Source: Anaerolineae bacterium
GTDB lineage: Bacteria; Chloroflexota; Anaerolineae; Aggregatilineales; Aggregatilineaceae
Direction of reading: 5' to 3'
DNA: 64,000 nucleotides
NCBI GenBank assembly: GCA_027494015.1
Contig: JAOSJP010000037.1
Coordinates: forward strand, 192,467 to 256,466
The stretch's first letter is position 1. The number at the start of each line of letters is the position of its first letter. Position numbers and translations under genes: made by a program. This document shows positions 4,521 through 56,600 of the stretch, in pieces. The notes under the pieces were generated by a model. That model did no database searches. It worked only from the letters and a program-made list of their open reading frames with translations, and was not told the DNA's origin.

Positions 4521-4597
4521 CCCCTGCGATGCTCATAGCCGGCGGCGGATGCCTGACCGCTGAAAGCTCTTCGCTCACCAAGGAGACGCACGCGCAC

Positions 4598-29882: not shown

Positions 29883-29886
<4 letters not shown>
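29071..29886 (-). CDS. trpA: tryptophan synthase alpha chain
   Basis: Cleaves indole-3-glycerol phosphate to indole, which is channelled to TrpB. The 271-residue TIM barrel shows the catalytic Glu in [16 protein letters not shown] (about Glu49) with the catalytic Asp in the same loop (DPLADGP), and the phosphate-binding GFGISGPEQ near 215. It is the last gene of the trp operon, and its ATG overlaps the trpB stop by 4 bases. Confidence 0.96.
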
Positions 29887-31112
<1,226 letters not shown>

Positions 31113-31121
31113 GGGCCTCCC

Positions 31122-32602: not shown

Positions 32603-33638
32603 GCGCCAACTCCTGGCTGAAGGCGATCAGCGCGTCGAGCCTGGCCAGCGCCGCGCCGCTGCTGAGGGCGTCGGCGGCCAGGGCGATGCCCTCGCCGAAG
32701 TCTTCCGCGCGCCCCGCCGCGAGCAGCGCCGCCCCCGCGTTGAGCAGCACCACATCGCGCTTGGCGGCGTTGACCTCCCCGCTGAGGATGCCGCGCAGGA
32801 TGCGCGCGTTCTCCGCCGCGTCCCCGCCGAGCAGCTCCCAGATGTGGGCGGGCGTCAGGTCGTAGTCCAGCGGGTTCAGCTCGAAGGTGCGCACCGCGCC
32901 GTCGGCGTAGTGGCTGACGACGTTGGGGCCGGTGGTGGTCAGCTCGTCAATGTTGCCGTAGCCGCAGACGACGATGGCTGAGATCGCGCCCAACTCGCCG
33001 AGCACGTTGGCCAGGTACTCGGTCAGGTCAGGCGTGAAGACGCCCATCAGTTGACGGCGCGCGCCCGCCGGGTTGGTCAGCGGGCCGAGGATGTTGAAGA
33101 TGGTGCGCACGCGCAGGTCGCGGCGCGGGCCGATGGCGTGCTTCATGGCCGGGTGCAGCCTGGGGGCGAAGAGGAAGCCGATGCCGATCTCGTCCACGCA
33201 GCGCCCCACCTGCTCCGGCGTCAGGTCGAGATTGACGCCTAGCTCGGCCAGCACGTCGGCGCTGCCGCAACGGCTGGTGCTGGCCCGGTTGCCGTGCTTG
33301 GCGATGCGCACGCCCGCCCCCGCCGCCACGAAAGCGACCGCCGTGCTGATGTTGAACGTGCCCGACCGGTCGCCGCCGGTGCCGCAGGTGTCCAGCAGGT
33401 CGCCGTCGGAGCGCGTGGGCACCTGGATGGCGTTGGCGCGCATGGCGCGGGCGCTGCCCAGAATCTCGGCTTCGGTTTCGCCCTTCATGCGCAGACCCAT
33501 CAGGTAGGCGCCGATCTGCGCTTCGGTGGCCTCGCCGCGCATGATCTGGTGCATGACCGCTTCGGCCTCCTCGACGCGAAGCTGCCCGAAGCGGCTGATC
33601 ACGTCTATGGCGCGCTGGATGTCAATGACTGGGTTCAT
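32592..33638 (-). CDS. trpD: anthranilate phosphoribosyltransferase
   Basis: Transfers phosphoribosyl from PRPP to anthranilate. The 348-residue protein has the PRPP loop CGTGGDRSGTFNIST (about 85-99), KHGNRASTSRCGSADVL (about 113-129) and DE in the metal site (CVDEIG). The gene is separate from trpG, unlike the fused enterobacterial form. Confidence 0.96.
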   Translation of the reverse strand: MNPVIDIQRAIDVISRFGQLRVEEAEAVMHQIMRGEATEAQIGAYLMGLRMKGETEAEILGSARAMRANAIQVPTRSDGDLLDTCGTGGDRSGTFNISTAVAFVAAGAGVRIAKHGNRASTSRCGSADVLAELGVNLDLTPEQVGRCVDEIGIGFLFAPRLHPAMKHAIGPRRDLRVRTIFNILGPLTNPAGARRQLMGVFTPDLTEYLANVLGELGAISAIVVCGYGNIDELTTTGPNVVSHYADGAVRTFELNPLDYDLTPAHIWELLGGDAAENARILRGILSGEVNAAKRDVVLLNAGAALLAAGRAEDFGEGIALAADALSSGAALARLDALIAFSQELAHGG

Positions 33639-33823
33639 GGTGTCCTCGTGGTGGTTGGTTGCTGGTTATTGGTTGGCAGGTTTCGGTGATCGGTTGTCAG
33701 TTGTCAGTGATCGGTTGCCGGTAATCCGGAAACCGCGCGCCCTGCTAAAGACCGAAAACTGTCCACTGGAAACCATCGGCCCGCCCTACTGAAAACGGAT
33801 CACTGACCACTGATCACTTCCCC
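33639..33823. other. intergenic spacer inside the trp operon with short repeats
   Basis: The gap between trpG and trpD contains degenerate direct and inverted repeats built on GATCGGTTGTCAGTTGTCAG and TGATCACTGACCACTGATCA. No gene or clear terminator is present. It is an unusually long gap for this otherwise tightly packed operon. Confidence 0.5.
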
Positions 33824-34390
33824 TCACAGCCGGCGCTCCAGGAAGTTCTGCACGATGCGCGCGCCGAACCTGGTCAGGATGCTCTCCGGGTGAAACTGCA
33901 CGCCGACGACCGGGTGCAGCTTGTGGCGCAGGGCCATCACCTCACCGACCTCGGTGAAGGCGGTGACCGTCAGCGCGTCGGGCAGCGGCTCCTCGACGAT
34001 CAGGCTGTGGTAGCGCGTCGCCTCGAACGGGCTGGGCACGCCGGTGAACAGCGCCGCGTTCTTGTGGTAGATGTGGCTGGTCTTGCCATGCATCAGGCGC
34101 GGGGCGCGCACGACGCGCCCGCCGTATGCCTGGCCGATGCACTGCTGGCCCAGGCACACCCCCAGGATCGGCGTTGTCGGCCCCAGCGCGCGGATCACGT
34201 CGAGCGAGATGCCGCCGTCGTCGGGCGTGCCGGGGCCGGGCGAGATGACGATGTGCGATGGGCGCAGCGCCGCGATCTCGTCGAGCGCGATCTGGTCGTT
34301 GCGGGCCACCGTCAGGTCGGCGCCCAGCTCGCCCATCAATTGCACCAGGTTGTAGGTGAAGCTGTCGTAGTTATCAATCACCAGGATCAT
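33824..34390 (-). CDS. trpG: anthranilate synthase, glutamine amidotransferase component
   Basis: Supplies ammonia from glutamine to TrpE. The 188-residue class I amidotransferase has the nucleophile in GVCLGQQCIGQ (Cys near 81) and the His-Glu pair in VQFHPES (about 170-176). MILVIDNYDSFTYN is the family start, so the ATG at 34390 is chosen over longer in-frame starts. The first gene trpE ends 83 bases upstream. It could also serve p-aminobenzoate synthesis. Confidence 0.94.
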   Translation of the reverse strand: MILVIDNYDSFTYNLVQLMGELGADLTVARNDQIALDEIAALRPSHIVISPGPGTPDDGGISLDVIRALGPTTPILGVCLGQQCIGQAYGGRVVRAPRLMHGKTSHIYHKNAALFTGVPSPFEATRYHSLIVEEPLPDALTVTAFTEVGEVMALRHKLHPVVGVQFHPESILTRFGARIVQNFLERRL

Positions 34391-34473
34391 GGCCCTCTCC
34401 CTCGAATACAGCCTTCCGTAGGGGCGCTGCTCTGCTGCCCATGTCTCAGGCCGCATCACCTTGCGTGCTTCCT

Positions 34474-35994
34474 CTATCCCAGCCCGCGCTCAGCGTTCTG
34501 CACGGCCACGGCGACCGCCTGCGCTTTGTTGACCGTCTCCTCGTACTCGCGCGCCGGGTCGCTGTCGGCGACGATGCCCGCCCCGGCCTGGAAGGTCACC
34601 TGGTCGCCGCGCATGAGCATGGTGCGGATGGTGATGCAGGTATCCATCGAGCCGTCGAAACTGAAGTAGCCGACCGCGCCGCCATACGGCCCGCGCCGCG
34701 TGCCCTCAAGCTCCTCGATGATCTCCATCGCCCGCACCTTCGGCGCGCCGCTGAGCGTCCCGGCGGGGAAGGTGGCGCGCAGCAGGTCGAAGGCGCTCAG
34801 CCCGGCGCGCAGCCGCCCCTGCACCTGGCTGACGATGTGCATGACGTGCGAATAGCGCTCGACGATCATCATGTGCGGCACGCGCACCGTGCCGTACTCG
34901 CACACGCGGCCCAGGTCGTTGCGGCCCAGGTCTACCAGCATGACGTGCTCGGCGCGCTCTTTTTCGTCGGCCAGCAGCTCGGCGGCCAGGGCCTCGTCCT
35001 CGGCTTCGTCGCGCCCGCGCGGGCGCGTCCCGGCGATGGGCCGCACGGTGGCCGCACCCTCCTCCAGGCGCACCATCATCTCCGGCGAGGCGCCGATCAG
35101 CGCCAGGTCGTCGCTGAAGCGCAGGAAGAACATATAGGGCGAGGGGTTGAGCGCGCGCAGCGCCCGGTAGATGGTGAAGGGCGGCGCGCACGTCCGGCGG
35201 CTGAAGCGCTGCGAGAGCACGATCTGGAAGGCGTCGCCGGCGGCGATATGCTCTTTCGCCGCGCGGACGTTGGCCTCGAACTGGGCGCGGCTGACGTTGG
35301 AGCGCAGGTCGCCGCCGCTCTCGGCGGGGCACTCGTCAATGAACGGCAGCGGCCCGGCCAGCGCGTCGAGAATCTGGTCAATGCGGTGCACGGCGTCGTC
35401 GTAGGCGGCGTCGGGATCGCCCGCGTTGTGCGCGTTGGCCAGGACGACGAGCTGGTGTTTGGCGTGATCGAAGATGACCAGCGTATCGGCCAGCAGGAAG
35501 GCGGCATCCGGCACGTCCAGATCGTCGCCCGCTGTGGCCGGCAGCCGCTCGAAATGGCGCACGACATCGTAGCTGAGATAGCCGACCGCCCCGCCGACGA
35601 AGCGCGGCAGCCCTTCCAGCCGCACCGGGCGAACGCGCTCGAACTCGGCGGCGATGACGTGCAGCGGGTCTTCGCCGGGGGCCAGGTCGCGCGCCGTCGT
35701 CTGGCCATGCCGGATGATCGTCACCCGCTGGCCCTGGACGGTGATCATCCCCTTGGGGTTCACGCCCAGGAACGAGTAGCGCCCCACCTGCTCGCCGCCC
35801 TCGACGCTCTCCAGCAGAAACGACGACGCGCCCAGCGCGGCCAGCTTGAGGTAGACCGAGACCGGCGTTTCCAGGTCGGCCAGCAGCGTGCGGTAGACGG
35901 GGAGCAGATCGCCGCGCTCGAACAGGCGGTGAGCCGCCGCCCGATCCGGGAAGATCGGCGCGCGCGTGCGCAGGTGTTGCGGTGACAGTGCCAT
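34474..35994 (-). CDS. trpE: anthranilate synthase component I
   Basis: Makes anthranilate from chorismate and is the committed step of the pathway. The 506-residue protein has an N-terminal domain with the inhibitor-type LLESVEGGE motif near 50, where Trp binds in regulated enzymes. The chorismate-binding core includes RPIAGTRPRG (about 333), EERAEHVMLVDLGRNDLG-like residues, and GTLSGAPKVRAMEII. The start MALSPQ is preferred because longer frames run into the leader. Expression is set by the T-box just upstream. Confidence 0.95.
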   Translation of the reverse strand: MALSPQHLRTRAPIFPDRAAAHRLFERGDLLPVYRTLLADLETPVSVYLKLAALGASSFLLESVEGGEQVGRYSFLGVNPKGMITVQGQRVTIIRHGQTTARDLAPGEDPLHVIAAEFERVRPVRLEGLPRFVGGAVGYLSYDVVRHFERLPATAGDDLDVPDAAFLLADTLVIFDHAKHQLVVLANAHNAGDPDAAYDDAVHRIDQILDALAGPLPFIDECPAESGGDLRSNVSRAQFEANVRAAKEHIAAGDAFQIVLSQRFSRRTCAPPFTIYRALRALNPSPYMFFLRFSDDLALIGASPEMMVRLEEGAATVRPIAGTRPRGRDEAEDEALAAELLADEKERAEHVMLVDLGRNDLGRVCEYGTVRVPHMMIVERYSHVMHIVSQVQGRLRAGLSAFDLLRATFPAGTLSGAPKVRAMEIIEELEGTRRGPYGGAVGYFSFDGSMDTCITIRTMLMRGDQVTFQAGAGIVADSDPAREYEETVNKAQAVAVAVQNAERGLG

Positions 35995-36019
35995 CAGTGC
36001 GCCTCCCGCAGGATTGCCA

Positions 36020-36355
36020 GAAACGAAAAGAATCCCCCCTTCGCTCAAGGACGAGAAGAGGAGATTCCCGCGGTGCCACCCTGATTAAGCGACTGTCTCC
36101 AGGAACAAAAACATCTCCGGTGAATGCGCGGAGATGCGGGAGAAGCCAGCTTCACTCGTTGAGATACGGACGCAGCCCGCTTGCCCTGGGCCGCCTCGAT
36201 ACCCGTCACCCTGCTAACGGTGGTGTCTCCGGTGCGGGCTACTGGCGCGAGCGCGTTCGACCGCACAGCTCCCTGGCCCATTCCACACCGGCGCTTGTAC
36301 CGCCTTCGCAGCCCCCGGCGGCTCTCTGAACACCGCTGCGGTGTGTACTAGTCCA
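36020..36355 (-). promoter_or_regulatory. T-box leader, tryptophan specifier, controlling the trp operon
   Basis: On the minus strand the T-box core TGGCACCGCG lies at 36069-36078. Downstream, GAATCTCCTC pairs with GGGGGGATTC (ten pairs including G-U), followed by TTTTCG as the terminator. The specifier loop reads GGAATGGGCC with TGG (Trp) at 36278-36280, and an AGTA motif is near the 5' end. Uncharged tRNA-Trp should stabilise the antiterminator and switch on trpEGDCFBA. I did not find a convincing promoter upstream. Confidence 0.88.
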
Positions 36356-36424
36356 GATCAACGCTTTTGCGTGTATGCGACTGTGTTTCAAAAGGTAGCA
36401 GGGTTTGGCGGCGTTGTCCGGACG

Positions 36425-40652: not shown

Positions 40653-42076
40653 ATGAACCCAGATGAAAAAGCACTGCACGAACTGGACAAGGCAACCCTG
40701 GTCGCTATCATCCTCGAACTGCGCGAGATGATTGGGCAACTGACTGCGCGTATCCAGGACCTGGAAGACCAGCTTGCCAAGAACAGCGGCAACAGCGGTA
40801 AACCGCCGAGCAGCGATGGGTTGAGAAAAAAGCCTGCACCCAAGAGCCTACGGGCCAAAGGGCAGCGACGGACGGGCGGACAACCGGGCCATCCAGGACA
40901 CACGCTGGAACTGGTGAGCAACCCGGAGCACATCGAAGTGCACCGGTTGGCGACCTGCCCCCAGTGTCAGCACGACCTGAGCGAAGCACCGGTGCTGGCC
41001 GTTGAGCGGCGGCAGGTATTTGATGTGCCTCCGGTGGTCATTGAAGTGACCGAACATCAGGTGCCCGTCGTGTGTTGCCCCAACTGTCAGACGCACGTGA
41101 AAGCGGCGTTTCCAGCAGATGTGACCCAGCCGGTGCAGTACGGAGAGCGGTTGAAAGCCCAGGCGGTCTACCTCACTGGGTACCAGTTGCTGCCGGTGGC
41201 ACGAACCTGTGAAGTCTTTGAGGACCTGTACGGTCATCGGCCCAGCGAAGCGTTGGTCTTGAGTGCGACAGAGGCGCTGCATGAGCAGCTTGACCCCGCC
41301 CTGAGCGCAATCCGCGACCAGATTATTCGGGCGGACGTGGTCCATGCCGATGAAAGCGGTCTGCGGGTGGAAGGCCAGCTCAACTGGCTGCATGTGCTCT
41401 CGACGGAACGCTTGACCCATTACGCCGTGCATCCCAGGCGTGGACAAGTTGCCATGCGTGACATTGGGCTGCTGGCTGACTATCAGGGTCGTGCCATCCA
41501 TGATGCTCTGGCCGCCTATTTCCAGTTCGACAAGTGCACTCATGCGCTCTGCAACGCCCATCATCTACGTGAACTACGCTTCGTTACCGAACAATACGGG
41601 CAGGCGTGGGCCGGTGAAATGGCCCAGTTGCTGCTGGACATCAAAGCCGAGGTCGCCCAAACCCTTGACGCCATGACGCTGCCACCCGACCGCCTCGCGT
41701 ACTACGAAACCTGTTTTGACGTGCTGCTCCAGGCTGGTTTTGACGCCAATCCGTCCCCAGCCACACCTCCACCGCGTCAACGCGGGCGCAAAAACAATCG
41801 CCCCGAAAAATCTGTTGGGACCGCCTGTCCAGGTACAAAGCTGAGACGCTGGCTTTCATGCACGATTTCCGCGTGCCCTTCGATAACAACCTTGCCGAGC
41901 GTGACCTGCGCATGATCAAGGTCAAACAGAAAGTCTCCGGCACGTTTCGCACACGCTCCGGCGCAGAAATCTTCTGCGATATCCGCAGTTACATCTCAAC
42001 CGTTCGGAAGCAGGGTGCGAATGTGCTGGCTGCTCTCCACGATGCCTTGTTAGCGCGTCCCTTTGTCCCTGCCTGA
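40653..42076 (+). pseudogene. IS66-family transposase (TnpC), frameshifted
   Basis: The first 390 residues match IS66 TnpC: N-terminal coiled coil, KNSGNSGKPPSSDGLRKK, the GGQPGHPGHTL motif, a zinc finger (CPQC...CCPNC) and the DDE domain with HADESGLRV and CNAHHLRELRF. Near 41815 the frame is lost, and the conserved end ([19 protein letters not shown]...[14 protein letters not shown]) continues in another frame from 41858. At least one extra G in a GGGAC run, and probably further homopolymer indels, explain it. It may be a sequence error rather than decay. Confidence 0.8.
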
Positions 42077-42263
42077 GTAATTAACAAAACAAAACGCCCC
42101 CCCTTCGGTTGTTTCTTTCCAAAATAAAGAAAAAACACACTTCCCCCTTTTCCCTTTTTTTCAACTCACAAAGCAAAAAAAAGAACCAATAAAAAAAAAA
42201 AAAAAAAACTTGGTGTATAAAAAAAAAAAGATCTACACCCCCCACACCCAAAATTTAAAAAAA
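42077..42263. other. A-rich homopolymer tract, probable artefact
   Basis: About 190 bases of long A, C and T runs, including a stretch of about 18 A, in a genome otherwise near 68% GC. It joins the end of the IS66 gene to the middle of a different transposase. It looks like low-quality or gap-filled sequence. Confidence 0.7.
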
Positions 42264-43058
42264 ATGAAGAAGAAAAAAAACTTTATCATTGAACTGTTCT
42301 GCTGGGTAGACGATCACATGCCACAGGAGCCGAAACATCCGCAAGCCAAGCTGTATCCGAGTGAACTGGTGACGATAGGCTTGTTGTTTGCGCTCAAAGG
42401 AGGCTACTTTCGTGCTTTCTACCGCTGGTTGAGCCGGGATTACGCGCTGCTGTTCGCCGGTTTGCCCGAGCGCACCCGTTTGCAGCGGTTGTTGTTGACC
42501 CATCAGGCGTGGTGTGACAGCTTTCTGGCCCAACCGACCTTTTTCACGGTCATTGATAGTTACGGCATTGAGTTGATCCATCCGATCCGAGAGGGCCGTA
42601 GCCCGCAGCAAGTGGGCAAGAAAGGCAAGAGCAACTGGCGCTGGATCGTCGGAATGAAGCTTTGCTGGCTGCTCAATGACCGGGGCGAAGTTGTGAGTTG
42701 GCACTGGGATACCGCCAACGCCCATGATCAGGTTTTTCTGCCATTGGTGGCCGCCTTGGAGGACATCAGCATTGTCCTGGCGGATACTGGCTTCAACGAT
42801 GCCGATGGCATTCCGTCCAACCTCAAGTTGTGCCCGCGTGGAACCTGGAACGAGCGGATGCTGGTCGAAACCGCTCTCTCGTTGGTCACGATGGTCTGCC
42901 ATTTGAAGAAGGTCTTTCACCGCACTCGCCATTATTTCCAGGCCCGTCTCGCCTATGTCGTCGCCTTGTTCAACTCGATCCTTGGTCTCAATCGCTGTCT
43001 TCAACCCGATGCCGACCCCCGGAATCGCCTTTATCAGTTCGCCCAGTTCGCGCTATGA
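42264..43058 (+). CDS. DDE transposase (IS982/IS5-like), N-terminus corrupted
   Basis: From FIIELFCWVDDHMP onward the protein is a compact DDE transposase. The three acidic residues are probably in TVIDSYGIEL, VLADTGFND and WNERMLVETAL. The last 40 residues (LAYVVALFNSILGLNRCLQ) are the usual helical end. The first eight codons (MKKKKN) come from the A-rich tract, so the true start is not visible. The stop lies 11 bases before the right inverted repeat of the surrounding IS66-type element. The family is uncertain between IS982 and IS5 groups. Confidence 0.65.
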   Translation: MKKKKNFIIELFCWVDDHMPQEPKHPQAKLYPSELVTIGLLFALKGGYFRAFYRWLSRDYALLFAGLPERTRLQRLLLTHQAWCDSFLAQPTFFTVIDSYGIELIHPIREGRSPQQVGKKGKSNWRWIVGMKLCWLLNDRGEVVSWHWDTANAHDQVFLPLVAALEDISIVLADTGFNDADGIPSNLKLCPRGTWNERMLVETALSLVTMVCHLKKVFHRTRHYFQARLAYVVALFNSILGLNRCLQPDADPRNRLYQFAQFAL

Positions 43059-46235: not shown

Positions 46236-46270
46236 CTGCGGTAGAGTCGCCCCATCTCCTGGCTCCGCAC

Positions 46271-48346
46271 TCACGACCCAGGCATCCCCTCCGGCGCGGG
46301 GACTCGCTCCACGCGCACGGCGCACACCTTGAACTCTGGAATCTTGGAGACCGGATCGAAGACATTGAGCGTCAGCTCGTTGGCCAGCGCCTCAGCGAAG
46401 TGGAAGGTCATGAAGACGACGCCCTGCCGGGGCCGGCTGAACACGCGCGCCCGCGCCGTCACCGAGCCGCGCCGCGACGTGACGCGAATCCAATCACCGT
46501 CGGCGATATTCAGCCGCGCCGCGTCCTGCGTGTGCATCTCGACGCGCTCCTCCGGGGCCAGAAACTCCAGCCCGCCCACGCGCCCGGTCATCGTCCGCGT
46601 GTGCCAATGCTGAAGCACGCGCCCGGTCGTCAGGATGAACGGGTATTCGTCATCGGGCAGTTCGGGCGGCGGCTGATGCTGCACGGGGCTGAACAGCCCG
46701 CGCCCGCGCGGAAATATTGTCGTGTGCAGGATCGGCGTGCCGGGGTGCGCCGCGTCAGAGCACGGCCACTGCAAGCCGTCGCCGTCCAGCCGGTCGAAGG
46801 TGATGCCGCCGTAGATGGGGGTCAGCGCGGCGATCTCGGCCATGATGTCGGCAGGGCCGGCGTAGTCCCAGCCGGACGCGCCCATACGCCGGGCCAGATC
46901 GCAGGTGATCTGCCAGTCCGCGCGGGCCTCGCCGGGCGGATCGAACGCCTGGCGCACGCGCTGGACGCGACGCTCGGTGTTGGTGAAGGTGCCGTCCTTC
47001 TCGGCGTAGGCGGCGGCGGGCAGCACCACGTCGGCGTACTCAGCCGTCTCGTTGAGGAAAATATCCTGCACGGCCAGGAAGTCCAGCGCGGCCAGGCACT
47101 CGCGAACATGGGCCGAGTTCGGGTCGCTCATCACCGGGTTCTCGCCCATGATCAGCATAGCGCGCACATCGCCGCGCCTGGCAGCGGGCAACATCTCGCT
47201 CAGCGTCAGGCCGGGGCGAGGGGGTGGCTGCTCCACGCCGTGAAAAGCGGCGAATTGGGCGCGCACAGCCTCGTCATTGACGCGCTGGTAGCCGGGGTAG
47301 ACATTGGGCAGGCCGCCCACATCGCACGATCCCTGCACGTTGTTCTGCCCGCGCAGCGGGTTGACGCCGCCGCCGGGCACGCCCAGGTTGCCGGTCAGCA
47401 AGGCCAGGTTGGCCACGGTCAGCACGTTTTGGTGGCCGTCGGCGTGCTGGGTGATACCCATCGCGTAGAAGATGGCGGCGGGCTTGTTCTCAGCGTAGAG
47501 GCGAGCCGCGCGGATGATGTCGTCGGCGGGCACACCGCTGATGCGGCTGACGCGCTCCGGCGGGTACTCGGCCACAACTGCGCGCCAGGCGTCGAAGTTC
47601 TCGGTGCGCGCGCCAATGAACGCCTGGTCGTGCAGGTTCTCGGCCAGGATGACGTGCGCCAGCCCGTTGAGCAGGGCGGGGTTCGTCCCCGGACGGACGC
47701 GCAGGTACAGCGCCGCGAAGTCGGCCAGCTCAATGCGGCGTGGGTCGGCGACGATGAGCTGCGCGCCGTGCTGCCGCACCGCCTTCTTGATTTGCAGGCT
47801 GAGGACGGGGTGCTGCTCGGTCGTGTTGGTGCCGATGGCGAGGATGGCCCGCGCCTGGGGAATATCGGCGATGGAGTTGGTCATCGCGCCGCTGCCGAAG
47901 GCCTGCACGAGGCCTGTCACGGTGCTGCTGTGTCAAAGGCGGGCGCAGTGGTCTATGTTGTGCGTGCCGATCACCTGCCGCGCCAATTTCTGCATCAGGT
48001 AGTTCTCTTCGTTGGTGCATTTGGCGCTGCACAGCAGGGCGATGGCGTCCGGGCCGCTCTCGGCCTTGATCGCGCCCAGCCGCGCCGCGACAAGGTCGAG
48101 CGCCTCGCCCCAGGTAGCCGGTTGCAGCGTCCCTTCGCGGCGGATCAGCGGCGTGGTCAGGCGGTCGGGGTGCCACAGGAAGTCGTGGCCGAAGCGCCCC
48201 TTGACGCACAGCTTGCCGAAGTTGGGCGGCGCGCCGAACGGCGCAGTGACGCGATAGACGCGGCGATCTTTGATGTGCAGGTCAATCCTGCATCCTACGC
48301 CGCAGTACGGGCAGATGGTGCGCACGGTGCGGTCGGATTGGATCAT
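46271..48346 (-). CDS. fdhA: formate dehydrogenase catalytic subunit, selenocysteine-containing
   Basis: Molybdenum (or tungsten) bis-MGD enzyme that oxidises formate. The 691-residue reading includes an in-frame TGA (47933-47935) at codon 138. The context HCARL-[TGA]-HSSTV aligns with the Sec140 site of E. coli FdhF (RV-Sec-HGPSV), so the codon is read as selenocysteine. A GGCCT/AGGCC hairpin begins 19 bases after it, at SECIS distance. The [4Fe-4S] ligands are Cys12, Cys15, Cys19 and Cys47, with Lys49 beside them. The C-terminal MGD-binding domain follows RVLQHWHTRTMTG. The ATG at 48346 follows AGGTGA. No other fdh subunit or sel gene is in the window. Confidence 0.85.
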
Positions 48347-48376
48347 GGGCTTCACCTGTCGGCTGGAGACAGTCAA

Positions 48377-48595
48377 GGAGCGGGGTAGGCCCGCGCACCC
48401 TCATAGTAGCACAAAACGCCCGATGCCAAAACGCGGGGCGCAGGGTGTGTAGCGCGGCCAGGGGGTGAGGTTGATTGGTCGCCAGCGCGATGCTTCTCAC
48501 ACTGCTGTCCCCCCTGGACACTCGTGCGGGAAGGGCCGGGGATAGGGGCAAAGGCAAGCGCACGGCCTCTCAAACAGCCTCCTGAAGCGGCCCGT
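48377..48595. other. intergenic with degraded repeat fragments
   Basis: Holds a fragment GGCCAGGGGGTGAGGTTGAT of the hairpin core and a GGGAAGGGCCGGGGATAGGG arm. No gene or clear terminator is seen. Confidence 0.45.
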
Positions 48596-49279
48596 CTATT
48601 CCGCGCTGAGCTTGTAGCCGACGCCCCACACCGTCTCGATCTGGGCGGTGCAGCCGCCCAGCTTGGCCCGCAGGTGGGCGATATGCACGTCTACCGTGCG
48701 CGTCTGCCCATAGAAATCGAAGCCCCATACCAAATCGAGCAGCTTCTCGCGGCTGAGCACCAGGCCCTGGTTCTCCAGCAGAGCCAGCAGCAGGTCGAAT
48801 TCTTTAGCGCGCAGGTCCACCAGCCGCCCGGCGACGCGCGCCTCGCGCCGCGCCGGGTCAGCCGTCAGGTTGCCGGCGCGCAAGGGCGCTTCCCCTTCGC
48901 GGGGGCGGCGCGGCTCGGCCCGGCGCAGAATCGCCTTGATGCGCGCGACCAGCTCGCGCGGGTTGAACGGCTTGGTCAGGTAATCGTCGGCTCCCAGCTC
49001 CAGCCCCACGATCTTGTCAATATCGTCGTCGCGGGCAGTCAGCATGAGGATCGGCAGGTCGGATTCGGCGCGCACGCGCTTGCACACTTCCCACCCGTCG
49101 AGGCGGGGCAGCATCAGGTCGAGCACCATCAGCGCCGGGCTGTCCTGTGCGACGCGCTCCAGGGCCGCCAGGCCGTCGCCCGCGCTAATCACCCGGAAGC
49201 CATCCTGCTTGAGATACAAGCTGGCCAGCTCGATGATGTGCGGCTCGTCGTCCACCAGCAGAATCAGATCATGGGGCAT
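48596..49279 (-). CDS. OmpR/PhoB-family response regulator
   Basis: A 227-residue two-component regulator. The receiver domain has Asp10-Asp11, phosphoacceptor Asp54 (VLDLMLP), the Thr of MLTARD and the switch Lys in LTKPFNP. The C-terminal winged helix (about 130-227) ends ETVWGVGYKLS, and RTVDVHIAHLRAKLG is the recognition helix. No histidine kinase is adjacent. The ATG at 49279 follows GTGAGG; an in-frame GTG at 49291 would overlap the upstream gene. It is probably co-transcribed with the DUF4926 gene 8 bases upstream. Confidence 0.93.
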   Translation of the reverse strand: MPHDLILLVDDEPHIIELASLYLKQDGFRVISAGDGLAALERVAQDSPALMVLDLMLPRLDGWEVCKRVRAESDLPILMLTARDDDIDKIVGLELGADDYLTKPFNPRELVARIKAILRRAEPRRPREGEAPLRAGNLTADPARREARVAGRLVDLRAKEFDLLLALLENQGLVLSREKLLDLVWGFDFYGQTRTVDVHIAHLRAKLGGCTAQIETVWGVGYKLSAE

Positions 49280-49287
49280 AGGCCGCC

Positions 49288-49512
49288 TCACTTCACGGGG
49301 CGGGCATGGGCGATCTCAAGCTGTCCCACAGGGCGAACCTGGCCGGCAGCGACGGTGATCACGTCATAGGTCTGGCCGTTCACGGTGAATATCTCCACTT
49401 CGTAGCCCTCGCCCTGCCCGTGCACCAGAGCGATCACCCCCAGATCACCCGCTTTCAGCCGGTGTTCAGGAAAATCTGCGGTCAGCACCACCCGGTCGTG
49501 TTCCTTAAGCAT
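49288..49512 (-). CDS. DUF4926 protein
   Basis: A 74-residue protein. HDRVVLTADFPEHRLKAGDLGVIALVHGQGEGYEVEIF-type sequence (about 5-42) is the small beta-barrel DUF4926 pattern. From memory, such genes often sit right after a DUF6883 gene, as here. The role is unknown; a toxin-antitoxin-like pairing has been suggested by the layout only. GAGAGAGGACGG precedes the ATG. Confidence 0.78.
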   Translation of the reverse strand: MLKEHDRVVLTADFPEHRLKAGDLGVIALVHGQGEGYEVEIFTVNGQTYDVITVAAGQVRPVGQLEIAHARPVK

Positions 49513-49524
49513 GGCCGTCCTCTC

Positions 49525-49696
49525 TCACAGCGGGTATGCTGTGACCAAACGCGGCACGTCCTCTCCGCGTTCGATGAACCACACAGAACGAATCTCTGGA
49601 TTGCGCCCATCAGGAGACATCAGCGTGCCCTCAACGCAGATACTCGGTGATCTTGGCCTGGGAGACCACCGCCCGTGACAGGTTAGGTAGCTTCAT
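49525..49696 (-). pseudogene. DUF6883 gene with an internal deletion
   Basis: The 5' end reads MKLPNLSRAVVSQAKITEYL, the usual DUF6883 start. The 3' end reads VEGTLMSPDGRNPEIRSVWF then IERGEDVPRLVTAYPL, the usual end, but in a different frame. About 50 codons between them are missing, and the frame closes at TGA after residue 21. The intact form should be around 110 residues. The partner DUF4926 gene is intact. Confidence 0.65.
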
Positions 49697-49706
49697 GGGC
49701 CAGCCC

Positions 49707-49897
49707 CTAGAGGCTGTTATGCACTGACGGCCCTGTCTTTCCCCAGCGGTTTTGGGTAGCTCCTGGTTTACCTCACCCCCGTCTCGGCGCTGGCGCGCCT
49801 CGCCATGAGGGGGAAAGGCCGAGCGCAGGAGGCAGGGGGTGAGGTCAACAAGCGCCCTCTCCCTTGTTGAAGATACCAAGCTCATAACACGCTCTAG
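49707..49897. mobile_element. MITE-like element, copy 2
   Basis: Starts CTAGAGGCTGTTATGCAC and ends CATAACACGCTCTAG, the same ends as copy 1 but inverted relative to it. The hairpin tip is partly deleted (CGCCATGAGGGGGAAAGG). It lies 64 bp from copy 3 in the same orientation. Confidence 0.7.
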
Positions 49898-49961
49898 CTA
49901 TCAGCTTTCAGCCAAAGACACAGACCGGAGGTTTTCGCTGACTGCTGATAGCCGATGGTCG

Positions 49962-50173
49962 CTAGAGCTTGTTATGCACTGACGGCCCTGTCTTTCCCCA
50001 GCGGTTTTGGGTAGCTCCTGGTTGACCTCACCCCGTCTCGGCGCTGGCGCGCCTCGACTCCCCCTCTCCATGCATGGAGAGGGGGAAAGGCCGAGCGCAG
50101 CGAGGCCAGGGGGTGAGGTCAACAGAGCGCCCCTCTCCTGTGTCAAGGATACCAGGTTCATAACACGCTCTAG
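49962..50173. mobile_element. MITE-like element, copy 3 (overlaps a stop codon)
   Basis: Starts CTAGAGCTTGTTATGCAC and ends TTCATAACACGCTCTAG, with the CTCTCCATGCATGGAGAG tip as in copy 1. Its right end lies on the stop codon of the minus-strand hydrolase gene: the TAG is the first three bases inside the CTAG end. The 64 bp between copies 2 and 3 carry CTATCAGCTTTCAGCC-type short repeats. Confidence 0.75.
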
Positions 50174-51024
50174 ACCGCCACCACCAGCGTATCGTGGGCG
50201 AACGTGACCGGCAGCCCCTCGTCGCGCAGGCGCGCGGCCAGCCGTTGCAGGTCGTCGTGACTCAGGCCAACCGGCTCCTCGACGTGAGTCAGGATCACGC
50301 GGCGGGCGTCCAGCGCGCGCACCATGTCGAGCGTCTGCTCGAAGGTTGCTTCGGCGCGCAGCACGGGATGTTCGGCGGGGATGATCCGCGACCCACTGAA
50401 CGGGTCGAACTCCGGCAGGCCCATCGGCAGCACGGCCAGGTCTACGCCGCGCACCTCGGCGGGCGGCGCCCATTCGAACAACTCGTCAGGCGCGATCAGG
50501 ACGCGCGTCGCCGCATCCTCGAACAGGAAAGCATAGACATAGTCCTGGGCGAGGCGGAAAGGGCGGATGGTCACGCCGTTGCGGGCGATGGTCTCCCCGT
50601 CGCGCAGCACAATCACCTCCACCACGCCGAGATGCTGCAAGTACATAAGTTGCTCCCACGCGCCCAGCCGGTGATGGAAATCCTCCGCGACCTGCTGCGG
50701 CAGGAAGATCGTGCTGCGGCGGTGCTGGGGCGGCCAGCTCAGCCAGTCGCCGTTCAATGATTCCCACACGCGCAGCCCGGCCACGTGATCGGGGTGCCAG
50801 TGCGAGTACAGGCAGGCCGGGACGTAGGCGATTTCGGCGCGGTCAAGCTGGAACTTGCTCTCCTCCGGCGTATCTATCAGCACGTCCGGCCCGTGCACGA
50901 AGACGCCCGGCCCGCTACGGCTGTAGGGCACGCCTTTGGCCCGCGCTTCGGCGCAGAGGCGGCAGGTACAGCCCGGTCGCGGCGTGGTGATCGCCCCGCC
51001 GGAGCCTAGAAACTCGATGCGCAT
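50170..51024 (-). CDS. metallo-beta-lactamase-fold hydrolase, PhnP-like
   Basis: A 284-residue hydrolase. The metal motif HWHPDH is at residues 75-80. An N-terminal Cys cluster (Cys19, Cys21, Cys24 in GCTCRLC) resembles the structural zinc site of PhnP phosphodiesterase, which acts on phosphoribosyl cyclic phosphate. No phn gene is nearby, so another cyclic phosphate or nucleotide is possible. MRIEFLGSGGAITTPRPGC is the family start. Its stop codon is supplied by the end of a MITE-like element. It lies 13 bases after the RidA gene and may be in the same operon. Confidence 0.8.
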   Translation of the reverse strand: MRIEFLGSGGAITTPRPGCTCRLCAEARAKGVPYSRSGPGVFVHGPDVLIDTPEESKFQLDRAEIAYVPACLYSHWHPDHVAGLRVWESLNGDWLSWPPQHRRSTIFLPQQVAEDFHHRLGAWEQLMYLQHLGVVEVIVLRDGETIARNGVTIRPFRLAQDYVYAFLFEDAATRVLIAPDELFEWAPPAEVRGVDLAVLPMGLPEFDPFSGSRIIPAEHPVLRAEATFEQTLDMVRALDARRVILTHVEEPVGLSHDDLQRLAARLRDEGLPVTFAHDTLVVAV

Positions 51025-51037
51025 GGGATTTCCCCGC

Positions 51038-51424
51038 TCAGTCCGGCAGGACGGCGACGGCGTCAATCTCGACCCGCACGCCCAGTGGCAGGTCGCGCAC
51101 GGCGTAGGTCATGCGCGCCGGCGGGTCTGCCAGGAAGAACGTGCGATAGACCTCGTTCATCTCGGCGAAGGTGCTGATGTCGGTCAGCAGCACGTTGACC
51201 TTGACGACGTGGGCCAGGTCGGTGCCCGCCGCCTCCAGAATGGCGGCGATGTTGCGCAGCACCTGGGCGGTCTGCTCGGCGACGGTCGGTCCGACGATCT
51301 GCATCGTCTCCGGCACCAGCCCGCCCTGACCGGCCACGTACACGGTGTCGCCCGCCCTGATCGCCTGCGAGTAGGGGCCGATGGCGGCGGGCGCTTGGTC
51401 GGTGTGGATCACTTCACGCGGCAT
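51038..51424 (-). CDS. RidA-family enamine/imine deaminase, copy 1
   Basis: A 128-residue RidA protein that hydrolyses reactive 2-aminoacrylate-type enamines. The catalytic Arg is in PPARMTYAVRDLPLG (about 103-106) and Glu in VEIDAVA near the end; GPYSQAI is near residue 16. It is about 65% identical by eye to the copy upstream, so the two arose by tandem duplication. Confidence 0.92.
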   Translation of the reverse strand: MPREVIHTDQAPAAIGPYSQAIRAGDTVYVAGQGGLVPETMQIVGPTVAEQTAQVLRNIAAILEAAGTDLAHVVKVNVLLTDISTFAEMNEVYRTFFLADPPARMTYAVRDLPLGVRVEIDAVAVLPD

Positions 51425-51448
51425 GAGGCTCAGTCCTCTCTCGGCGGC

Positions 51449-51835
51449 TCAGGCGGGCAGGACGGCGACGGCTTCGATCTCGACCAGCGCGCCCAGCGGC
51501 AGGTCGCGCACGGCAAAGGCGGCGCGGGCGGGCGGCTGTGCGGGGAAGAAGGCGCTGTACACGTCGTTCATCTCCTTGAAGGCGCTGATGTCGGCCAGGT
51601 ACACCGTCGCCTTGACCACGTGGGCCAGGTCCGTGCCCGCCGCTTCCAGGATGGCGGCCATGTTCAGCAACGCCTGCTCTGTCTGCGCGGCGACGGTGCT
51701 GCCAGCGAGCTGCTTGGTCTCCGGCAGCAGGCCAAGCTGCCCGGAGACGAAGACGAACCCGTTGGCGGCGATGGCCTGCGAGTAAGCCCCCACCGCAGCA
51801 GGGGCGCGGGGAGTGGCGATCACTTCACGGGACAT
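51449..51835 (-). CDS. RidA-family enamine/imine deaminase, copy 2
   Basis: A 128-residue paralogue of the following gene, 24 bases upstream of it. It keeps GAYSQAI, the catalytic Arg in PPARAAFAVRDLPLG and Glu in VEIEAVAV. The residue before VEIE is Leu where copy 1 has Arg. Retention of all key residues suggests both copies are active, perhaps with different substrates or regulation. Confidence 0.92.
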   Translation of the reverse strand: MSREVIATPRAPAAVGAYSQAIAANGFVFVSGQLGLLPETKQLAGSTVAAQTEQALLNMAAILEAAGTDLAHVVKATVYLADISAFKEMNDVYSAFFPAQPPARAAFAVRDLPLGALVEIEAVAVLPA

Positions 51836-51909
51836 GCGATAGCTCCTCTCTACGGTTCTTCACCAGGTGCCTGTCTATCAATTCGCCCGCGTAGGGGCAA
51901 GAATTTTCA

Positions 51910-52617
51910 TCACTTCCTGCGATTCTTCTTGCGGCTGGACTTGGCGAGCTTGTGCTTGCGCCGCTCTTTGCCAGAGGTCCGGCGGGTATGGCTTAGCCCG
52001 GTGCTGGCTGGAAGCTCAGAATCGTCTGGCACAGGGAGGGGCCTCCCGATCCCAGGAAAGGCCGCCATGTCTCTGGTCATCTCTTCATTGTAGATTGCTA
52101 CCCACCGGTCAACGTCCTCTTGCTTGCTCATGTCAAACCCGCGCTTCGCACCCGTCATGACTATCGTCTTGGCCATGCCAAAGTTGGACGGGTCGTTCAT
52201 CTCTTTATCCATAAGCCTGGCCATTCTGTCGTCGAGGACTTGCAGGCAGGCTTCCGCGTTGGGCAGGCCATACTCGCGCTTGAGGAAGCTCCAGAAGGCG
52301 CGCAGCGTGCGCACGACCTTCTCCCCGTCGAAACCTCCCGGTGTGGACACCTTGCGCGGGAACAGGTCGAAGAGGACTTCGCGCAGATCGCCCGCACTCA
52401 TCTCCGGCGGAGAGACTCCTATAGAAACCATAGAATGATCAAGGAATGTGTCAACCCAGAAGAGGCTGAAGAATTCGCCCGACTCTCTCTGCGCCTGCGC
52501 TTCAGGAGAATCGGCAAAGAGTTCCATCAAGTGCTCAATATAGCGACCGACCGCCTCATTGTCGTCCCAGCCCCTTCCATCCACGAACTCATTAATGTCG
52601 AATCCCTGTGTAGTCAC
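51910..52617 (-). CDS. hypothetical protein with basic tail
   Basis: A 235-residue protein of no recognised family. It is acidic and helical through most of its length (GWDDNEAVGRYIEHLMELF; FWSFLKREYGLPNAEACLQV). The C-terminal 25 residues are strongly basic (KERRKHKLAKSSRKKNRRK), which suggests nucleic-acid or ribosome contact. The GTG start follows GGGAGGTGA at good spacing and overlaps the amylosucrase stop by 4 bases, so the two are coupled. Base composition is a little less GC-rich than its neighbours. Confidence 0.7.
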   Translation of the reverse strand: MTTQGFDINEFVDGRGWDDNEAVGRYIEHLMELFADSPEAQAQRESGEFFSLFWVDTFLDHSMVSIGVSPPEMSAGDLREVLFDLFPRKVSTPGGFDGEKVVRTLRAFWSFLKREYGLPNAEACLQVLDDRMARLMDKEMNDPSNFGMAKTIVMTGAKRGFDMSKQEDVDRWVAIYNEEMTRDMAAFPGIGRPLPVPDDSELPASTGLSHTRRTSGKERRKHKLAKSSRKKNRRK

Positions 52618-54580
52618 AAGTCACCTCCCGCGCTTTCTGGCTCACCGGCATTCGTCCCTGCTGCCAGCCAGACGGCCTGGTAGGCGTCCAGCGTCAGCGG
52701 CTTGTGACGGGGGTAGTTTGTGCCGGTGATCAGATCGGTCGGCTTCGGCGGCGCCCAGCCCAGCCGGACGGACTGCTCCTCCTCGGAGAAGTTGGCCAGG
52801 GTGAGCACCTGCCCGCCGCGCACATAGCCGAGCACGTGCACGTTGTGCGTGTCGAAGAAGTGCGTATCGCCGTTGGCCAGGGCGGGCGTTCGCTGGCGGA
52901 TGGCGATCAGCGCGCGCAGCGTCCCGAAGATGCGCCCGGCGTCGGTGTCGGGGGCGGTGCGTTCGGCGGCGCGCTCCCAGTCGAAGGCGCGGCGGTGCAC
53001 CCAGCGGCTATCCTCCGACTTGTGGGGATCGTCTGTGTAGCTGTAATCGTTGAGCATGGCGATCTCGTCGCCCAGGTAGATCAGCGGGATGCCGCCTGCA
53101 CTCAGAATCACCGCGTGAATCAGCGCGATGCGGCGCAGGGCCAGCTCGCGGTAGCGGTCGTTGCCCGTCTCGTGAGCGTGCTCCAGCCCGGCCAGCGACG
53201 CGCCCATGCCGGAGATGCGCATATCCCGCGTGCGCGGGTTGTAGTTGAAGGGCACCCCCCGCGCAAAGCTGCCGGGGAACCTGCCGGTGTAGAAGGCGTT
53301 GAGGAACTGGCGGTGATCGAAGCCGTTGATGCCCAGCTCCCAGGCGTCTTCGTCAGCGAACGTCCAGCCGATGTCGTCGTGACAGCGCACGTAGTTGACC
53401 CATGTGCAGCCTTCGGGCAGGGCGAAGCGCTTTTGCATCGAGTGGTGCAGCAGGGCCACGCTGCGCGTCGCCAATGATTCCCACAGCAGGGCCATCAGCG
53501 TCGGGTTGTAGGAGATCGGCGCTTCGCCGGGGCTGATGTAGCGGGCGACTTCGGCGGGGTGGACGATGGCCTCGGACTTGAAGAGCAGCGCCGGGGCGAC
53601 GATACGCGCCAGGGCGTTGAAGGCCTGGATGAGCGTGTGCACCTGGGGCAGCCCCTCACAGGACGTGCCCATCTCCTTCCAGATGAAGGCCACCGCGTCC
53701 AGGCGCAGCACTTCCACGCCGAGGTTGGCGATGAACAGCAGCTCGCCGAGCATGGCGCGGAACACGTCAGGATTGGCATAGTTGAGGTCCCACTGGAAGT
53801 GGTGAAAGGTCGTCCACACCCAGCGGTCAATCTCCGGGCGATAGGTGAAGCTGCCCGGTGCCTGCTCCGGGAAGATTTCGCGCAGGTGCCGTTCGTACTG
53901 GTCGGGCAGCGCCCGGTCGGGAAACATCAGGTAGTACGCCTGGCAGGTCGGGTCGCCGGCCAGGGCCTTGCGCGCCCAGTCGTGCTCGTCGGAGGTGTGG
54001 TTGAAGACGAAATCGAGCACCAGGCTGATCCCCTCGGCGCGCAGAGCGGCAGCCAGGTCGCGCAGCTCGGCGGTTGTGCCCAGGCGCGGGTCTATCTCGC
54101 GGTAGCTGCTGATGGCATAGCCGCCGTCATTGTGATCAGCGGGGCAGCGGAAGAGCGGCATCAGGTGCAGGTAGGTCAGGCCCAGCTCCTTGAAGTAAGG
54201 GATGCGGGCGCGCACGCCGGCCAGGTTGCCAGCGAACAGGTCTACGTAGCACACGCCGCCGACCATCTGCTCGCCCTGGAACCAGCGCGGATCGGCCTCG
54301 TGCGCCCGGTCGAGCGCCTTGAGGTCGGCGGGACGCTCCGCATAGAGGCGCGCCGCCGCCAGCAGAATCTGCTCCAGGTGGTAGAAGAAGTCGTAGCGCG
54401 CCCCGTAGAGCGCGTGCAGGGAGCGGAAGGCTGCCGGGAAGTGCTGCGCCAGCCGCGCGCTGAACTCGTCGCGCGCCGCGCCTTCCGGCAGCAGGGACAG
54501 GGCGCGCGGCGGCAGCCGTTAGGGGGGTGCAGCAGCCGGATCGTGTCCAGGGTCAGGGCGCTTTCGCGCTCGAAATCCAT
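52614..54580 (-). pseudogene. amylosucrase (GH13), single-base frameshift near the start
   Basis: Makes amylose-like glucan from sucrose, or splits sucrose. From 54266 on the GH13 barrel is complete: NHTSDEH, nucleophile Asp in LRLDAVAFIW, acid/base Glu in LLFKSEAIV, and Asp in VRCHDDIGW; a C-terminal beta domain ends the protein. The N-terminal helical domain begins MDFERESALTLDTIRLLHPP and then changes frame. RLPPRALSLLPEGAARDEF continues in the main frame after a CCCCCCTAACGG tract near 54520. Restoring one A there gives about 655 residues. It may be a real mutation or a sequencing error. It lies 16 bases after the double-Nudix gene. Confidence 0.8.
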
Positions 54581-54596
54581 GACGACCAACCCCTCC

Positions 54597-55592
54597 TCAG
54601 CGCAGCACCGGCCACGTCTCGCGGCGCAGGTAGTCGCGCAGAATCTGCGGCGTGTCCGTGAAGTCTACGAACGGCTGAGCCAGCAGCTCTTCGATTGGCT
54701 TGAAGGCAACGGCGCTGGCTTCCTCACCATCCGCGTGGAGCGTCCCGCCGGTGACGCGGCACTCAACAGCCAGGCCCAGGTTGTGCGCCAGGTCGCCGTT
54801 GGGAAAGCGGGCCAGCATCAGCGCCGTCTCGCTGTAAAGGCCCACGACGCGGACCGGCTCCACAATCAGCCCCGTCTCCTCGCGCACCTCGCGCACGATG
54901 GTGGCGGTGGTCGTCTCACCCAGATCGGCGTAACCGCTCGGCGGGTGCCACAGTCCATCGTCGGTGCGCCGCGTGCATAGCAATTCGCCGTGCTCATTGG
55001 GCACCAGGCCCATGCCTCCTGGCAGGATCACCGCCGCGTGCCCGACCGCCGCGCGCAGCAGCGGGTAGTAGGGCGTCAGGACCGGCTCGGCGTAGACCGG
55101 CTCCAGCACAGCCTCGTCCGGCGACTCCAGGGCGGCGCGAACCATCGCCCGGTAAGCGGGCGGGAAGTGCGGCAAGGCTTCATCCACCGCCATCCAGGTG
55201 ACAGCCAGCGTCTCGGCTCCGTCGGCGCGAATCTGGCCCCCGACCGGGCGCGAGACGACGCACGCCGTCCACTGCTGAACGCAGTCTCCGTTGGGATAGC
55301 GCAGGTTATAGTCGGGGTGACTGAAGACGCCGACCAGCCGCTCGACTTCGACGCGCAGGCCGGTCTCTTCCAGCGTCTCGCGCTCGGCGCAAGCGCGGAT
55401 GTCCTCGCCCGGCTCCAATGCGCCGCCGGGCACGCTCAGCCAGTCAAAGTCGTAGCGGCGCTGGACGAGGATGCGCCCGGTCTCATCGAAAACCAGGTTG
55501 GTGGCGTAGACGAGATAGATGAGCCGGGGGCCAACGCGCTCGCGCAGCCACTTGACGTAGCCATCGGCCCGGCTGACGAATTCCTGTGGCAC
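54597..55592 (-). CDS. double Nudix-domain hydrolase
   Basis: A 331-residue fusion of two Nudix domains. The first box is GGALEPGEDIRACAERETL then EETGL (about 56-79), and the second GYADLGETTTATIVREVREE then TGL (about 223-245). Both have the complete GX5EX7REUXEEXGU pattern, so both sites should bind metal and cleave nucleoside-diphosphate-linked substrates. The GTG start follows GGGAGG by 8 bases. Co-transcription with amylosucrase suggests a link to sugar-nucleotide turnover, but this is inference. Single-domain proteins are far more usual. Confidence 0.85.
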   Translation of the reverse strand: MPQEFVSRADGYVKWLRERVGPRLIYLVYATNLVFDETGRILVQRRYDFDWLSVPGGALEPGEDIRACAERETLEETGLRVEVERLVGVFSHPDYNLRYPNGDCVQQWTACVVSRPVGGQIRADGAETLAVTWMAVDEALPHFPPAYRAMVRAALESPDEAVLEPVYAEPVLTPYYPLLRAAVGHAAVILPGGMGLVPNEHGELLCTRRTDDGLWHPPSGYADLGETTTATIVREVREETGLIVEPVRVVGLYSETALMLARFPNGDLAHNLGLAVECRVTGGTLHADGEEASAVAFKPIEELLAQPFVDFTDTPQILRDYLRRETWPVLR

Positions 55593-55654
55593 TGTCTGTC
55601 CCTCCCAGTATCAAACCCGCCCTCATTGTACCGGGCTGGGGGCCTTCTGTCATG

Positions 55655-56600
55655 GGGGCGCTGCGGGGCAATCGCATCAAACGTGCGCGGTGTTCTACCT
55701 CACCCCCTGGCCTCGCCCCGCTCGGCTTGCCCCCTCTCCGTCAACGGAGAGGGGGCGGCGAGGCGCGCCAGCGCCGAGCGGGGGTGAGGTCAACCAGGAC
55801 GCAGCAGAGCAGCGCCCCTACCTGACAGGTTTTGTACGCACCCGTCGCGGCGATAAGCCCCGCACGGCGTCAGCGCCTAAAGCCGCGAGCGCGGCGCCCC
55901 TCTCCGTTGACGGAGAGGGGCGGCAGGCGCGTGAGCGCCGAGCGGGGGTGAGGCAACCAGGCGCAGCAGAGCAGCACCCCTACCTGACGGGTTCTGCGCG
56001 GCACTCCTGCAGGGCAATCGCATCAAACGTGCGCGGTGTTCTACCTCACCCCCTGGCCTCGCCCCGCTCGGCTTGCCCCCTCTCCGTCAACGGAGAGGGG
56101 GCGGCGAGGCGCGCCAGCGCCGAGCGGGGGTGAGGTCAACCAGGACGCAGCAGAGCAGCACCCCTACCTGACAGGCTTTGCGCGCACCCGTCGCGGCGAT
56201 AAGCGCGATAAAGAGACTTCCGAAGTTTTCGAAAACTTCGGAAGTCTGGCGTTATGAGCGCCCCTCACTTTACCTCACCCCCAGCCTCGCCCCGCTCGGC
56301 TTGCCCCCTCTCCGTTGACGGAGAGGGGGCGGCGAGGCGCGCCAGCGCCGAGCGGGGGTGAGGTCAACCAGGGCGCAGCAGAGCAGCGCCCCTACCTGAC
56401 GGGTTTTGCGCGGCACTCCAGCAGGGCAATCGCATCAAACGTGCGCGGTGTTCTACCTCACCCCCAGCCTCGCCCCGCTCGGTGCCCCCTCTCCGTTGAC
56501 GGAGAGGGGGCGGCGAGGCGCGTGAGCGCCGCGCGGGGGTGAGGTCAAGCGGGGCGCAGCAGAGCAGCACCCCTACCTGACGGGTTTTGCGCGGCACCCA
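55655..56600. repeat. cluster of about five composite hairpin repeats
   Basis: Cores lie near 55695-55792, 55897-55953 (left arm lost), 56041-56140, 56270-56365 and 56453-56545. Each is flanked by GGGCAATCGCATCAAACGTG on the left and GCAGCAGAGCAGCRCCCCTA, CCTGACRGGTTTTG on the right. Copies at 55660 and 56010 are nearly identical for about 170 bases. A 34-bp palindrome sits between the third and fourth. No gene is found in this kilobase. Confidence 0.8.
56214..56247. repeat. 34-bp perfect palindrome (AGACTTCCGAAG family)
   Basis: AGACTTCCGAAGTTTTC is followed by its exact reverse complement. Confidence 0.85.

Follow-up and report, generated by a model that had tools for sequence, protein, structure and literature searches.

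A formate dehydrogenase gene with an in-frame TGA

Here, we describe a predicted formate dehydrogenase gene that is interrupted by a TGA codon and lies on the minus strand of a 64 kb stretch of DNA, hereafter the window. Under translation table 11, the open reading frames 47933-48376 and 46271-47920 are in one frame and flank the TGA at 47935-47933. Read-through from the ATG at 48346 gives 692 codons, inner and final TGA included, and the inner TGA is the sole one within the gene. The gene and its parts are as follows.

46271..48346, minus strand: fdhA/fdhF-type formate dehydrogenase alpha, predicted as one continuous selenoprotein gene (read-through, TIGR01591, PDB relatives, alignment with E. 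coli FdhF)
48346 and 46271-46273, minus strand: ends of the fdhA/fdhF gene, start ATG at 48346 and true stop TGA at 46271-46273
47933..47935, minus strand: UGA probably read as selenocysteine (Sec), residue 138 (counterpart of the UGA at codon 140 in E. coli fdhF; all 10 loci of the clade defined below have TGA)
47936..48376, minus strand: upstream 'gene' expected from automatic calling, ending at the UGA, with an alternative TTG start at 48376
46271..47920, minus strand: downstream 'gene' expected from automatic calling, with a spurious GTG start (the database protein P0008 is the same piece in other records)

The read-through protein matches the formate dehydrogenase alpha model TIGR01591 over residues 10-679 of 692 with 869.7 bits (cut-off 666.25). 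Its best relatives of solved structure are formate dehydrogenases, which have X (9t1s) or Cys (7qv7) at the TGA site. In the alignment with E. coli K-12 FdhF, 302 of 684 residues are identical, the TGA of E. coli fdhF itself (residue 140) falls on the TGA of the window, and C12, C15, C19, C47, K49, H139 and R332 align with C8, C11, C15, C42, K44, H141 and R333 of the E. coli protein. We take the aligned cysteines to be those of the 4Fe-4S cluster and the residue at the TGA, the histidine and the arginine to be catalytic. The initial annotation had placed the two parts in one frame, split at the catalytic Sec/Cys codon, and had compared the codon context HCARL-TGA-HSSTV with E. coli FdhF; reading frames and homologue alignments agree with it on both counts. 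No partner subunit was found among the fdh neighbours in the window that were submitted to Pfam, nor among six neighbours of the gene at locus L258, which are a GntR regulator, a ROK protein, three ABC-transport proteins and an FHA protein.

A TGA that joins two same-frame coding-like stretches is not rare in itself, as the window contains six of them (TAA none, TAG one). Of the other five, those at 25910, 31122 and 51449 each mark the boundary between two separate genes in one frame, and those at 50758 and 4949 lie opposite called genes. The TGA at 51449-51451 separates two tandem RidA-like genes in one frame (51038-51835, minus strand), a pair that is hardly a case of recoding because each member encodes a complete domain and the second starts from an ATG of its own.

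Conservation of the TGA codon and selection on the gene

The protein search scored 8000 candidates, and the protein figures given here are from the best 120 listed. Thirty-seven of these 120 relatives are short (534-561 aa, 76-79% query cover), and all 15 of the 37 that were inspected begin after the TGA. P0008, which has the highest identity among the relatives listed (94%, 550 aa) and represents 25 member sequences, likewise begins just after the TGA. Automatic annotation thus seems to break this gene, as had been anticipated. In 13 full-length relatives that were aligned, Cys occupies the position of the TGA.

At the DNA level, the catalytic codon of 120 loci was TGA in 81, TGC in 24, TGT in 15 and no other codon in any, so that 39 of the 120 encode Cys. 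Thirteen of these loci, read on the other strand, gave TGA in 12 and TGC in one. The loci of a contig scan, at least 80 in number and none exceeding 58% identity in its best segment, are thus not a fair sample. The genome G242 is probably a sister species of the window organism because it is colinear with the window, in six pieces from 46270 to 55666 at 89-92% nucleotide identity. Its formate dehydrogenase is 94% identical to that of the window. In the order of G242, 154 genomes were searched, 66 of them matching at 1e-230. In the class of G003, an Ardenticatenia (Chloroflexota) draft that also falls within the order of G242, 396 genomes were searched and 276 matched at 1e-100. The window itself thus most likely comes from this order.

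Ten loci (that of the window, L084, L259, L085, L086, L087, L260, L261, L262 and L263; hereafter the clade) cluster together in a midpoint-rooted tree of 56 rows (support 100/100), and the TGA is retained in all ten. Compared with the closest relative, L084, the part upstream of the TGA has a dN/dS of 0.131 and the part downstream of it one of 0.145; in comparisons with L259, L085 and L263, the values on either side lie between 0.127 and 0.211. These ratios indicate that both halves of the gene are under purifying selection.

Several observations on related genomes were made along the way. Within the stretch of G242 compared, its match to the window stops at the 3' end of fdhA (46270), and beyond this end the window contains transposase genes of another DDE family (42210-43058), of IS66 (40653-41915) and of IS110 (13769-14764). 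G242 has a second formate dehydrogenase gene (C1:371114-373201) without inner stops, 57% identical to that of the window and presumably a Cys paralogue. Locus L108 (genome G204) encodes a Cys (TGC) enzyme within a group of Sec-containing formate dehydrogenases (Sec-FDHs), and its GGUCU and most of the canonical hairpin are kept, which looks like a change from Sec to Cys with a remnant SECIS. L079, from Perlabentimonas gracilis, which we take to belong to a genus of Bacteroidota, has TGA at the catalytic codon of its formate dehydrogenase. As of 2006, no Sec decoding was recorded in Bacteroidetes, according to PMC1794560.

A candidate SECIS hairpin downstream of the UGA

A hairpin follows the UGA within the coding sequence.

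47899..47915, minus strand: candidate bacterial SECIS hairpin AGGCCU-CGUGC-AGGCCU, 6 bp, +18 to +34 after the UGA (folding, synonymous conservation, 6/6 pairs in 10/10 clade loci)
47905..47909, minus strand: apical loop CGUGC, whose second and third positions are G and U (folding; same loop in the selD of G242)

The palindrome AGGCCT occurs twice 3' of the TGA, at +18 and +29. GGCCT at +19 to +23 pairs with AGGCC at +29 to +33 around the loop CGTGC, and A+18 pairs with U+34; the 5-bp GGCCT/AGGCC hairpin that had been reported 19 bases past the TGA therefore exists, but within a stem of six pairs. A further proposal, that AGGCCT corresponds to AGGTCT of E. coli fdhF, was correct in that both stand at +18, but the E. 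coli letters are loop plus closing pair and those of the window are a stem arm. Equating the two was ruled out, since the E. coli register keeps only 1/6 pairs in the window and the common peptide x-Gly-Leu can explain the likeness of the letters.

Folded alone, the hairpin has a free energy of -8.1 kcal/mol and a loop start at +24. Single-sequence folding gives no significant signal (z-score 0.06), with 96 of 200 shuffles doing equally well; when the same peptide was recoded synonymously 5000 times, 1576 of the recodings also yielded a model hairpin. Shuffles and recodings together rule out single-sequence folding as proof of a SECIS: the hairpin by itself is not more than chance, the TGA with its conservation is.

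Synonymous positions were compared in eight clade sequences, with L084 (a near-copy) and L087 (cut short) left out. Mean pairwise codon identity at invariant residues is 0.93 in codons +7 to +14 versus 0.53 in 313 codons elsewhere, with a mean of 0.80 over +1 to +16. The stretch +7 to +14 is the best seven-codon window of the gene, and the top five windows all overlap the hairpin site. This sliding window is the fair test; a permutation test on +6 to +13, a stretch chosen post hoc, gave 0 of 20000. Within the clade, codons +4, +13, +15 and +16 vary and +7, +8, +10, +11 and +12 are constant, two codons beyond the hairpin, +1 and +14, are likewise invariant, and L260 deviates at the loop codon +9. 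Codon +6 ends in A in 10/10 loci (ACA or TCA), while ACA makes up 2 of the 41 Thr codons of the window gene.

A register shift of the hairpin

According to the legend of Fig. 2 in PMC13188914, a 2026 review, bacterial SECIS elements have a loop of 3-9 nt and a stem of 4-16 bp. The same source gives a G at loop position 1 or 2 (mostly N1 G[G/U] N N2, with N1-N2 pairing), 16-37 nt from UGA to loop and a free energy of at most -7.5 kcal/mol. As far as this summary of the model goes, the hairpin of the window has a loop (5 nt) and a stem (6 bp) of permitted size, a G followed by U in its loop CGUGC, a UGA-to-loop spacing within the range (23 nt) and a sufficiently low energy (-8.1 kcal/mol); the N1-N2 pair is absent (C and C). 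The shifted candidate SECIS still fits the published bacterial model in this form. With the model as we coded it from that summary, and the distant Cys homologues L081-L083 left out, a hairpin was present in 10/10 clade loci, 59/71 other TGA loci and 5/36 Cys loci; 12/71 other TGA loci thus fail it, and the Cys loci with a hairpin drop to 3/36 if G followed by G or U is required.

Of the 71 other TGA loci, 56 have a loop start at +19 and 55 have the loop GGUCU. The clade has its loop start at +24 in 10/10 loci, with CGUGC in nine and CGGGC in L260. The window does not have the canonical register of formate dehydrogenase SECIS elements (loop at +19), of which it keeps 2/6 pairs; across the clade, one or two of six canonical pairs are kept and all six shifted pairs are formed in every locus. 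The clade hairpin can therefore be described as a candidate SECIS shifted by 5 nt, in which a CGUGC loop at +24 replaces GGUCU at +19, and it is probably a derived form. Derivation of the +24 form is the simplest reading because, in the midpoint-rooted tree, the clade sits among Sec-FDHs of the canonical type. The stem is invariant in the clade, and when L029, a Synergistaceae locus, is added, one of six pairs changes on both sides, a result matched by 66 of 500 shuffles. This double-sided change is a weak sign of covariation.

It is tempting to propose that a Chloroflexota lineage rebuilt its formate dehydrogenase SECIS, such that the ancestral +19 GGUCU hairpin was lost and a +24 CGUGC hairpin, whose loop matches that in the selD of the lineage, replaced it while Sec was retained, possibly with a SelB tuned to C-G-U-G-C/U loops. 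We put this scenario forward tentatively, at somewhat under even odds. If true, the rebuilt SECIS would be a natural record of a recoding signal moving inside protein-coding constraint. Among the titles listed in a literature search, none was on a shifted formate dehydrogenase SECIS in Chloroflexota. The locus offers a clean comparative case, in which a SECIS would have moved by 5 nt while the surrounding protein is nearly unchanged and for which clade, near relatives and controls are available, and it may be useful to predictors that expect a GGUC loop in formate dehydrogenases.

Selenocysteine machinery in related genomes

Reading of UGA as selenocysteine is well known in bacteria. In G242, selA (C18:64333-65652), selB (62479-64317) and tRNA-Sec (62214-62308) are adjacent on one strand; Pfam identifies the proteins as SelA and as SelB with winged helices. 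ARAGORN calls a tRNA-SeC with anticodon TCA in G242 and likewise in G003, G323 and G138. G242 also has selD, which contains one UGA of its own.

Among the nine clade genomes other than that of the window, selB was above the cut-off in all nine and tRNA-Sec was present in eight, with no match at E 1e-10 in G519. Of the four clade genomes searched for selA and selD (G242, G138, G323 and G003), selA was found in three and selD in four; in G003, selA gave no match and only parts of selB and selD were present. Within the 64 kb of the window, neither Rfam at gathering scores nor ARAGORN gave a tRNA-Sec, and a Pfam search with 37 of its called proteins identified no Sel protein. All four sel genes were observed in G242, and the genome of the window organism itself presumably has the machinery too.

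In the class, 44 genomes gave matches above cut-off for selA in 37, selB in 37, selD in 39 and tRNA-Sec in 39; in 20 further genomes of the order, selB and tRNA-Sec were each found in 16. The sel genes of relatives are a prerequisite that is in place, not proof, and they say little on this particular fdh gene because most of the genomes searched have them with or without a Sec-FDH. For the same reason, a contingency comparison of Sec-FDH and machinery was uninformative.

Selenocysteine as the probable catalytic residue

We estimate a probability of about 0.96 that the window encodes an intact formate dehydrogenase with selenocysteine as its catalytic residue, the UGA being decoded as Sec. The initial annotation had called the in-frame UGA a probable selenocysteine codon; homology, the recurrence of the TGA in independent genomes, purifying selection on the part that follows it, the Sec machinery of the closest relative and the conserved downstream hairpin all argue in its favour. 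A ribosome arriving at the UGA of the fdh mRNA would meet SelB with Sec-tRNA-Sec (anticodon UCA, supplied via SelA and SelD selenophosphate), held by the hairpin that starts 18 nt after the UGA, and Sec would be inserted instead of termination. Both the binding of SelB to the candidate hairpin and the presence of Sec in the protein are what we infer from the comparisons above. Sec138, with His139 and Arg332 close by, would then bind the Mo or W of the bis-MGD cofactor, and the enzyme would oxidise formate or reduce CO2. Such roles of Sec, metal, His and Arg are those of known formate dehydrogenases, and metal and catalytic direction of the predicted enzyme may be supposed by analogy.

The TGA might instead be a nonsense mutation, with the halves a decaying pseudogene or two separate proteins. 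Only the reading of TGA as a stop in table 11, giving two ORFs, speaks for this, and it is made extremely improbable by the retention of the same TGA in the whole clade, by dN/dS of 0.13-0.15 on both sides against L084, by the lack of the four aligned N-terminal cysteines in the downstream half alone, and by the position of the TGA on the catalytic codon as the sole one inside the gene. Misreading of a TGC or TGT in sequencing or assembly, which a single window could contain but which nothing supports, has a negligible chance, given that TGA recurs in independent genomes (L084-L087, L259-L263) and that P0008, with its 25 member sequences, begins just after it. Decoding as another amino acid, be it through a general code change (UGA as Trp) or as Cys via tRNA-Sec, could appeal to the Cys found at the site in 39/120 loci, so that Cys would probably work chemically. 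It is nevertheless very unlikely: TGA terminates other genes of the window, for instance six trp genes from 29071 to 34459, and is therefore not a general sense codon, and G242 has selA, selB, selD with its own UGA, and tRNA-Sec(UCA).

More weight, though still a small one, goes to the idea that Sec is inserted via an unmodelled element rather than the +18 to +34 hairpin, and that the synonymous positions are held for another cause. This would agree with the non-significant single-sequence fold, the lack of stem covariation in the clade (1/6 pairs with L029, reached by 66/500 shuffles), the equally invariant codons +1 and +14 outside the hairpin and the deviating loop of L260. Against it, codons +4, +13, +15 and +16 vary while +7, +8 and +10 to +12 are constant, the third base of codon +6 is always A despite the rarity of ACA (2/41 Thr codons), and CGUGC is also the loop of the G242 selD hairpin. 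We consider it improbable and retain the hairpin as the candidate signal for selenocysteine insertion. The selenocysteine reading corrects an annotation in which one functional enzyme would appear as two spurious genes; the same probably applies to the relatives listed as short pieces (37/120).

Other features of the window

A T-box leader (36044-36370, minus strand; RF00230, 94.5 bits, cut-off 93) lies just upstream of a trpE-like gene, which belongs to a trp gene cluster at 29071-36048. A gene resembling the FAD-binding domain of molybdopterin dehydrogenases (2850-3671, plus strand) lies between pheS-like (1069-2193) and pheT-like (4529-7267) genes. Two nearly identical copies of an intergenic sequence, a short distance apart, were noticed by eye at 49719-49800 and 49973-50060.

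Comparison with known systems

The predicted enzyme resembles E. coli FdhF (FDH-H) and the FdhA family in its match to TIGR01591, in the UGA at the same codon and in the aligned Cys, Lys, His and Arg residues that were checked. It differs from E. coli fdhF in its SECIS, which has GGUC at +19 in E. coli and CGUGC at +24 in the window. The nearest Sec-FDHs outside the clade, L088-L095 and L098 of the same class, are joined with it by a branch of 97/98 support in the 56-row tree and share the TGA at the same codon (9/9). Unlike the clade, all nine have GGUCU at +19, with five or six canonical and one to three shifted pairs. In the Synergistaceae formate dehydrogenase L029, the same shifted register is possible (AAGGUCU-CGGUG-AGACCUU, one pair changed on both sides), but this locus lies outside the clade on a long branch and its loop is CGGUG.

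A second likeness is found in the selD of G242 (L211), also a UGA gene with a 6-bp hairpin and the identical loop CGUGC, although its stem letters are different, its loop stands at +33 and the protein is another one. In a hairpin scan that allowed spacings up to 45, 23 of the 30 selD loci with a Sec motif had a hairpin and seven had none. The loop CGUGC or CGUGU occurred in eight selD loci and is not peculiar to the clade, because five of the eight lie outside it. FdhA and SelD are the most widespread bacterial selenoproteins, as stated in PMC1794560. Within this very common selenoprotein family, the formate dehydrogenase of the window is unremarkable apart from a minor variation in its SECIS.
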